Shown here piece by piece: positions 61,894 through 64,000 of a stretch of 64,000 nt of DNA. The number at the start of each line of letters is the position of its first letter. Position 1 is the first letter of the stretch. The stretch is taken from positions 1 to 64,000 of the forward strand of contig JADLHM010000089.1 of NCBI GenBank assembly GCA_020848745.1, in the 5' to 3' direction. The notes below the pieces were generated by a model that was not told the DNA's origin, made no database searches, and saw nothing but the letters and a program-made list of their open reading frames with translations. The translations under genes and the position numbers were made by a program. The DNA comes from Deltaproteobacteria bacterium (GTDB lineage Bacteria > Desulfobacterota > Binatia > UTPRO1).

Positions 61894-62844
61894 ATGCAAG
61901 ATCGCGCCGGCATGCTCGTGCACCCCTTCATGTTCCCCCTCAACCGCGACCGCGACCCGGAAGATTGGAAGATCCACTGGTTCCGTGACGGGACGGCGAT
62001 GGGCCACGTCCTCTGGGCGCTGAGCACCACGGGTCTCGCCCGGTCCTTCGACGTCGTGAACGCCGCCGACAGTCCCTGGCCCGCGAGCATCTCCGGCGAG
62101 AGCGCCCGGCTCGTCCTGTTCGTGACCGCGACCCGGCTGCCGCTCAGCGACGACGATCAGCGCAAGGCCATCGCGCGCAGCGGCTGCGTGATCGAGAACG
62201 CGATCCTGAACCGCCTCCTCAACTACTTCACCTACCTCGAGCGCGGCCGCGCCGTGCTGACGCGCGAGATGTCGGGCGTGCTGGAGCGCCGCAACCGCGC
62301 CGACATCGAGTTTCCGCAATACCATCGCCCCTGCAAGTACTTCCGCGACCTCTACGCCGAGACCCACGCTGAGCGCCGCCCCGTCGAGAACAAGAAGCCG
62401 TGGCGCACCTACGGCTACGTGGTGCGGGACCAGCTCTGGATCGACGGTCCGCACTTCCTCTCCTTCTTCGCCATGGACGGTGAGACGAACATCGGCTTCG
62501 CCCACCTCCTCCGCACGCGCCACGCGAGTCTGCTCGAGGGTCCGGGCCTCTCGATCGTCGAGCTGAGCGGCATGATCCCGCCCAAGGTCGGGTCGCTCGA
62601 GTTCATCGACGAGTGGAAATCGGATGTCATCCTCGACCGCGCTCCGACCCGCGTTCGGCCGCCGCGGACGCGCGAGCAGGCCTGTCGCGAGGCGCCGCTT
62701 TGCGGTCCCGATTTCATGGATGCGTACCTCGGGAAGTTCGGCCTCGGCGCCTCCGCCGCCGTGCCGCCGGCCGCCGACCCGGGAGCACGCGACGACCGGA
62801 GCGCCCGCACGACGCACCCCCTGCCGCGGCATCGCGTCGCCTAA
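61894..62844 (+). CDS. Hypothetical protein, 316 residues
   Basis: I do not recognise a family. The ATG at 61894 has a strong AGGAGG eight bases upstream. The protein has no signal peptide, and seems mixed alpha/beta: DWKIHWFRDGTAMGHVLWALSTTGLARSF, RLVLFVTATRLPLSDDD, FLSFFAMDGETNIGFAHLLRTRH and LEFIDEWKSDVILDRAPTRV are its clearer segments. It ends in an Arg/Pro-rich tail. It stands 70 bases before the FHA-like/RING-like gene on the same strand and may share its transcript, which would make it a candidate accessory of that system, but this is only positional. Confidence 0.75.
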   Translation: MQDRAGMLVHPFMFPLNRDRDPEDWKIHWFRDGTAMGHVLWALSTTGLARSFDVVNAADSPWPASISGESARLVLFVTATRLPLSDDDQRKAIARSGCVIENAILNRLLNYFTYLERGRAVLTREMSGVLERRNRADIEFPQYHRPCKYFRDLYAETHAERRPVENKKPWRTYGYVVRDQLWIDGPHFLSFFAMDGETNIGFAHLLRTRHASLLEGPGLSIVELSGMIPPKVGSLEFIDEWKSDVILDRAPTRVRPPRTREQACREAPLCGPDFMDAYLGKFGLGASAAVPPAADPGARDDRSARTTHPLPRHRVA

Positions 62845-62914: not shown

Positions 62915-63415
62915 ATGCCGCACCTCTGGACCGCCCCCGCTCCCGACACCGCAGCCGCCCGCGACGACCACGCGCCGCGCTGGTCCCGCCGGCTGATCGA
63001 CGCGACGTGCACCGTCGGCGACGCGACGCTCGCGCGCGCGGACCTCACCGGCGGCGCGCGTTGGCTCGTGCTCGGGCCCGCGACGGTGCGCGTGAACGGC
63101 GCGCCGCTCGCGACCGGCATCGCGGTCCTCCGCGACCGTGACGAGCTCCTGATCGACGGCGCGCGCCTCTACTTCTCGACCGAGGCGCGCCCGGTCGTCA
63201 CGCCGCTGCCGCCGAGCGAGCGTCCGCTCCGCTGCCCGCGCTGCACGGTCGTGATCGCGAGCGGCGCGGCCGCCGTGGCATGCCCCGCGTGCGGCATCTG
63301 GCACCACGAGAGCGCGGAGCGGCAGTGCTGGACGTACGCGGCCGTCTGCGCCTCGTGCGACCAGGCGACCGCCTTCGACGCGCCCTTCCGCTTCGACCCG
63401 ATGGTGCTCGGATGA
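62915..63415 (+). CDS. FHA-like plus prokaryotic RING-like zinc protein
   Basis: The 166 residues form two parts. Residues about 25-90 have the strand pattern of a forkhead-associated domain end (ATVRVNGAPLATGIAVLRDRDELLIDGARLYF). Residues 107-148 hold exactly eight possible zinc ligands: Cys107, Cys110, Cys123, Cys126, His130/131, Cys138, Cys145 and Cys148 in CPRC, CPACGIWHH, QCW and CASC. The order C2-C2-H-C-C2 and the string VACPACGIWHH resemble Prok-RING_1-type fingers (DxVxCPxCGxxxHRxCW), known from bacterial ubiquitin-like loci. The stop overlaps the start of an E1/ThiF-like gene (ATGA). It may act as an E3-like or adaptor protein. Confidence 0.75.
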   Translation: MPHLWTAPAPDTAAARDDHAPRWSRRLIDATCTVGDATLARADLTGGARWLVLGPATVRVNGAPLATGIAVLRDRDELLIDGARLYFSTEARPVVTPLPPSERPLRCPRCTVVIASGAAAVACPACGIWHHESAERQCWTYAAVCASCDQATAFDAPFRFDPMVLG

Positions 63416-64000
63416 CGGCCACCCGCGGAGCCACGGTCGTGGTCGTCGGCGCCGGCGGCAGCATCGGCAGTCAGCTCGTCCCCCACCTCGCGCGCACGCC
63501 GGGCATCGGACGGGTCGTGCTCGTCGACGGCGACCGTTACGACGAACGCAACCTCTGGGGTCAGAACATCCGCCGTCGCGACCTCGGACATCTGAAGGTC
63601 GCCGTGCAGCGGCGAGTGCTGCGCGAGATCGACGGCACGCTCGCGGTCGACGCGATCGCGGACGTCGTCGAGAACGTGCCGCTCGGGCGCATGCGGGGCG
63701 ACGTGGTGCTCGGCGCCGTCGACTCCAAGGGCGCCCGGCGCTCGCTCAACACGATCGCGACGCGCCTCGGCATGCCCTGGATCGACGCCGGCGTGAACGG
63801 CGATCAGCGCCTCGCACGCGTGAGCATCTACCGCACCGACGCCGCGGCGCCCTGTCACGAATGCGCGTGGGACGACGGCGACTACGCGCTCGCCGACACG
63901 GAGCGGCCCTGCCTCGCGGGCGCGTCGTGGACGCCGACCCGGGCGCCGAGCGCCCTCGGGGCGCTCGCGGCGTCGCTGCAGGCGCTCGAGTGCCGGCGGC
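63412..64000 (+). CDS. ThiF/E1-like adenylating enzyme (cut by window edge)
   Basis: Adenylates the C-terminal glycine of a ubiquitin-like or sulfur-carrier protein. At least 196 residues are present, and the frame runs off the right edge. Rossmann glycine loop VVVVGAGGSIGSQL (about 9-22), Asp39 in LVDGDRYDERNL with Asn47, Arg54-55 (QNIRRRD), Lys62 (GHLKVAV) and Asp104 (LGAVDSKGARR) match the ATP and Mg sites of the E1 superfamily. PCHEC (Cys148, Cys151) is a half zinc site; another pair should follow. The catalytic Cys cannot be assigned yet. It is coupled to the RING-like gene rather than to thiamine or molybdopterin genes. Confidence 0.88.
   Translation, partial: MTATRGATVVVVGAGGSIGSQLVPHLARTPGIGRVVLVDGDRYDERNLWGQNIRRRDLGHLKVAVQRRVLREIDGTLAVDAIADVVENVPLGRMRGDVVLGAVDSKGARRSLNTIATRLGMPWIDAGVNGDQRLARVSIYRTDAAAPCHECAWDDGDYALADTERPCLAGASWTPTRAPSALGALAASLQALECRR

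Follow-up and report, generated by a model that had tools for sequence, protein, structure and literature searches.

A ten-gene operon in which ubiquitin-like and Pup-like tagging systems appear to be joined around a proteasome-type ATPase

Genome context and operon organization

The right edge of the window (the whole 64,000-base stretch analysed, bases 1-64000 of contig C89, which measures 100,030 bases within a genome of 4.88 Mb) carries a gene for a small FHA-RING protein followed by the start of a gene for an E1-like enzyme, which raises the question of what kind of system these two genes introduce. In the initial annotation the pair was proposed as a candidate ubiquitin-like conjugation system, partly on the basis of an ATGA overlap joining the 166-residue frame at 62915-63415 to the E1 start at 63412. 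The overlap is present as described, and the proposal itself is borne out by the genes to the right of position 64000, where there are genes for an E2, for a JAB peptidase and for a Ubl that has a Gly motif at its C-terminus. This DNA was also checked for genes of cofactor type only; none follow in the operon, and E2, Ubl and JAB are found there instead.

Both genes are part of a ten-gene operon (C89 62915-72929, all genes on the + strand) that is cut by the end of the window within its second gene; coordinates above 64000 are the window numbering carried on along C89. The gene order is FHA-RING, E1, E2, a protein of unknown fold, Ubl, JAB, Mpa/ARC-type ATPase, Dop-like, Pup-like and PafA-like, and adjacent genes mostly overlap, by 4-14 bases. 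The genes for the Mpa-like ATPase, Dop, Pup and PafA lie beyond the window end, out of sight of the initial annotation, and are the most unusual part of the operon. The fourth protein (65048-65893, + strand, 281 aa) is included by its position in the operon and gave no family match in the searches made. Directly upstream of the operon, a 316-aa protein is encoded at 61894-62844 of the window; it has no Pfam match and no counterpart in the related loci.

The FHA-RING protein

The first operon gene (62915-63415, + strand) encodes a candidate E3 of 166 aa. Its homologues open with the same N-terminal motif, M-[AP]-H-[LV]-W, which lends support to the ATG at 62915 as the start. An FHA-like domain at about residues 1-90 is followed by a RING-like C4HC3 zinc domain at 107-148. 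The eight zinc ligands noted initially, in the order C2-C2-H-C-C2, correspond to C107, C110, C123, C126, H131, C138, C145 and C148 and are invariant in six loci. A C4HC3 ligand order characterises PHD and RING-CH fingers and not RING-HC. The nearest Pfam family is Prok-RING_1 (E = 3e-5, just below its cut-off), which was matched by five of six homologues. Modelled alone from a single sequence, the zinc domain, in which the ligands may form a cross-brace, reached a low pLDDT of 57.

An AlphaFold2 model built from six sequences (pLDDT 77) gave an all-beta N-terminal part. The whole FHA-RING model was used for the structure search, in which the match list was filled by FHA domains; among the matches listed by Foldseek almost all were of this type, and the best structural match was EmbR (Z 10.3, rmsd 1.6 A over 73 residues). 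The suspected FHA-like N-terminus is therefore supported by an FHA beta-sandwich in the model and by its structural matches. The phosphothreonine-directed ligase that had been derived from it was set aside, as no FHA phosphopeptide-contact residue is conserved across the six loci: the Arg of GR, the Ser of SxxH and the Asn of the SxNGT loop are all missing from the invariant columns of the six-locus sequence alignment. Because these contacts are absent from the invariant residues, we take the FHA domain, judging from the alignment, to be a scaffold or protein-binding domain.

The ubiquitin-like conjugation genes

The second gene (63412-64515, + strand, with 63412-64000 inside the window) encodes an E1-like adenylating enzyme of 367 aa with a Pfam ThiF match at E 1.2e-18. 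Its catalytic Cys aligns with the cysteine of E. coli ThiF and the nucleotide-binding loop is kept, while the Arg of the E. coli ThiF motif NLxRQ is replaced by Gly (NLWGQ), with Gly or Ser in relatives. The ATP site, initially described as intact, is thus retained in its nucleotide-binding loop and is not fully canonical at this Arg.

In G087, G088 and G085 the two halves of the E1 are swapped within one open frame, the part matching residues 174-366 coming first and the nucleotide-binding part (6-172) last, and the permuted enzyme terminates shortly past the catalytic-Cys region. The permuted frames are located at L025 11548-13035, L026 1906-3258 and L027 10720-11856, all on the minus strand. 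In a tree of the ATPase the three loci with permuted E1 stand apart from the five loci with standard order (support 99/98), and therefore a single permutation event suffices. No report of a circularly permuted E1 was found in the literature search; such an enzyme would represent an unusual form of an ancient fold.

The E2 (64512-65051, + strand, 179 aa) has no Pfam match. Its profile retrieved E2 enzymes from the PDB, namely eukaryotic E2s, with a best value of 3.3e-4 and with the HPN motif and the active Cys aligned. For the Ubl (65928-66260, + strand, 110 aa), the ends were compared in the seven loci in which they were available. The protein terminates exactly at Ala-Gly in G104, G087, G060 and G222, and in G000, G147 and G085 it continues past the Ala-Gly into a tail that the JAB peptidase could remove. 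A lysine in the sequence GQK is nearly invariant. Family matches of the Ubl are weak (YukD, MoaD), and the beta-grasp fold is thus weakly matched. YukD-like Ubls are reportedly suggested to be conjugated in the 2011 paper on RING operons. The JAB peptidase (66264-67283, + strand, 339 aa) was matched by Pfam JAB, and the residues of its JAMM motif (E, HxH, SxxD) are invariant. Catalytic motifs are likewise kept in the E2 and the AAA protein, and in the E1 except for one Arg.

The Pup-like genes, the ATPase and the proteasome

The AAA ATPase (67276-68928, + strand, 550 aa) shows Pfam matches to AAA and to the proteasomal OB domain, and its best family is the Pup-linked proteasome ATPase TIGR03689 (5.1e-74, under the equivalog cut-off). 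Walker motifs are present, the pore-loop region includes an aromatic residue, and the C-terminus is extended but lacks an Mpa-type GQYL end; both the pore-loop aromatic and the GQYL end residues are presumably of functional importance. The ATPase is followed by the Dop-like protein (68925-70634, + strand, 569 aa), for which Dop is the nearest NCBIfam family, and, after the Pup-like gene, by the PafA-like protein (70806-72929, + strand, 707 aa), which in NCBIfam lies near PafA as well as Dop. The two ligase-family proteins match the PafA/Dop family (Pup_ligase, PF03136) at 6.5e-92 and 8.5e-75; the NCBIfam scores of ATPase, Dop and PafA are all below the curated equivalog cut-offs. PafA-like proteins of this genus have about 707 aa, versus about 530 aa in the other loci. 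A C-terminal extension with weak TPR matches was observed in the PafA-like protein (L009 10806-12929).

The Pup-like peptide (70621-70809, + strand, 62 aa) belongs to a series of peptides of 60-67 aa sited between the Dop-like and PafA-like genes. These short and diverged peptides gave no match to the Pfam and NCBIfam Pup models, nor did a Pup profile match the PDB. Since no curated Pup model matches, the name is given for place, size and tail. The tail is GGQ in G104, G087, G085 and G088 and GGE in G222, hence one of these two tails in five of seven loci, and SAE in G000 and G147, which is the form of this genus. Of the 2326 open frames in the window and these loci, a GGQ or GGE end is present in five, of which four are the Pup-like peptides. 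The Pup of Nonomuraea, taken from a canonical locus, ends in ENAEEFVRSYVQKGGE, and the Pup-like peptide of G222 ends in GNSRDFLMHSRQRGGE.

No bacterial 20S beta subunit was found over the cut-off in the eight genomes, some of which are incomplete. Weak 20S beta hits were far under the cut-off, at the level of HslV-bearing control genomes, and the one in G000 is an HslV adjoining HslU. The ATPase may serve as a segregase or may hand its substrates to a different protease. An orphan proteasome/HslV-like Ntn hydrolase is encoded at about 2600-3180 of L029 (contig C76 of G000) in a 213-codon frame containing MSIAVAVRKGRTIAVAADSQ. It was not seen beside HslU, the HslV of the genome being located elsewhere, and it is a possible partner protease.

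Distribution and conservation

Eight genomes, all of one phylum, have this gene set in this order over the extent that their contigs cover. Seven loci are from the same class (G000, G147, G060, which is cut, G104, G087, G088, which is divided over two contigs, and G085), and the eighth, that of G222, is complete and comes from a different class in that phylum. When the phylum was sampled twice, both draws added one genome, the same in each case. A genome-wide scan with JAB patterns, which miss diverged members, returned three loci, all apparently in the set already.

Within the class, the E1 is present in 7 of 148 genomes and the Pup ligase family in 9, including all seven E1 carriers. By random draw this co-occurrence would have a probability of 1.3e-10, with the genomes treated as independent although they are related. 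The two additional Pup ligase genomes are a sister of G060, with a piece at the edge of a contig, and a sister of G104, with a broken remnant, and no intact Pup ligase without E1 was seen among the 148 genomes of the class. The distribution of the operon is patchy, even within the genus, where a third genome lacks it. The broken PafA-like remnant in the sister genome of G104 (L057 9757-10807), where the rest of the operon is missing, is a sign of loss.

Comparison with known systems

Bacterial operons with E1, E2, JAB and Ubl have been known since 2006 (PMC1779556), and operons that also encode a RING protein (Burroughs, Iyer and Aravind 2011) occur in Actinobacteria, Planctomycetes and Acidobacteria according to PMC4197634. 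Like these, the present operon brings together E1, E2, Ubl, JAB and a Prok-RING protein, with a Ubl that is weakly YukD-like. It differs from them in the FHA domain of the RING protein, in an E2 outside the reach of Pfam and, above all, in the addition of the Mpa-like ATPase, Dop, Pup and PafA. These last four are shared with the actinobacterial Pup-proteasome locus (PMC8223512), from which the operon differs in that no 20S was found here and in that E1, E2, Ubl, JAB and RING are joined to it. The Nonomuraea Pup locus examined for comparison gave no match to E1, JAB, Ubl or RING in its surroundings.

Pup outside the actinobacteria has been known since 2008 (PMC2588565). The loci of Plesiocystis and Rhodopirellula described there resemble the present one in having Pup and Pup ligases without proteasome genes, but are linked to a membrane protein, have ligases with four membrane segments and are described with no mention of ubiquitin-like genes. 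The Caldiarchaeum subterraneum operon (PMC5654768, PMC6043591) likewise contains Ub, E1, E2, a small RING protein and an Rpn11-like JAB, which trims the precursor there; it is archaeal, has no Pup, and its sequences are distant. Bil, CBASS and Bub have the E1, E2, JAB and Ubl logic in common with the operon and are not known to include a Pup half or an Mpa-like ATPase (in part PMC13373217).

RING/E1/E2/JAB operons and pupylation are thus each known separately, and their combination is apparently new: no description of Pup with E1/E2 in one operon was found in the literature searched, which lay outside Burroughs et al. 2011, a paper that may describe part of it. As that paper is the likeliest to have noted the combination, the claim of novelty is kept moderate.

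Proposed function and alternative explanations

From gene content, order, conservation, co-occurrence and catalytic motifs we infer the activities of the proteins, the sharing of substrates and the convergence of both tags on one ATPase. On balance, the operon seems to encode two parallel tagging pathways together with one unfoldase. In such a scheme, JAB would trim the tailed Ubl and expose its Ala-Gly, the E1 would adenylate the Ubl and pass it by thioester transfer to the E2 cysteine, and the FHA-RING protein would act as the E3 scaffold. In parallel, the Dop-like enzyme would ready Pup or take it off, and the PafA-like enzyme would link it to lysines. The Mpa-like ATPase, predicted to be hexameric, would recognise Pup, perhaps also the Ubl, and pull tagged proteins apart, with the tags being recycled by two erasers, JAB and Dop. 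Co-transcription alone does not prove a common substrate. A closer union can be suggested tentatively, in which the ubiquitin-like and Pup systems have merged into one machine around a proteasome-type unfoldase without 20S and the two tags cooperate or mix on the same substrates.

The main rival to parallel tags is a mixed or regulatory link between them. The tags could be chemically joined or control each other, with Pup placed on Ubl, E1, E2 or RING, or the Ubl on Dop, PafA or the ATPase, one switching the other. The strict linkage and order in eight genomes would fit such cross-control, as would the nearly invariant GQK lysine of the Ubl and the Pup-like peptide of three loci, which has no lysine and would hence be a donor rather than an acceptor. 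Parallel tags, however, account for the same data with fewer assumptions, and cross-control appears rather unlikely.

Less probable still is that the two halves are independent modules for stress or defence, united only by a common promoter and by travelling as a pair, and that the ubiquitin-like half works in the manner of other ubiquitin-like defence pathways of bacteria. Patchy presence (7/148 in the class, missing from the third genome of the genus) is what such modules could show, and the Bil and Bub operons are known or putative immune pathways (PMC13373217). Against this, PADLOC, with a model set that lacks Bub, returned distant E1 matches and general AAA matches only and had no model matching E2, JAB, Ubl or RING; JAB relatives were absent from the viral and plasmid collections searched; and no intact Pup ligase was seen in the class without an E1. 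The plasmids searched gave no relative of the E2. Ordinary thiamin or molybdopterin cofactor genes beside a zinc protein, an idea favoured by the place of ThiF and MoeB among the E1's closest characterised relatives and by the weak MoaD match of the Ubl, are ruled out by the downstream gene content, since E2, JAB, AAA, Dop, Pup and PafA share the operon and no cofactor gene does.

Ubiquitination and pupylation are a textbook case of convergence, in which unrelated tags and enzymes serve a similar purpose. In the parallel-tag reading preferred here, two tagging systems held to be separate appear joined in one machine, and the presence of both tags under one control across several families indicates that they can be used together. 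The operon offers a small genetic system in which to ask why there are two tags for one unfoldase, and it bears on the origin of the link between E1-E2-RING cascades and proteasomal ATPases that the eukaryotic 26S proteasome exemplifies.
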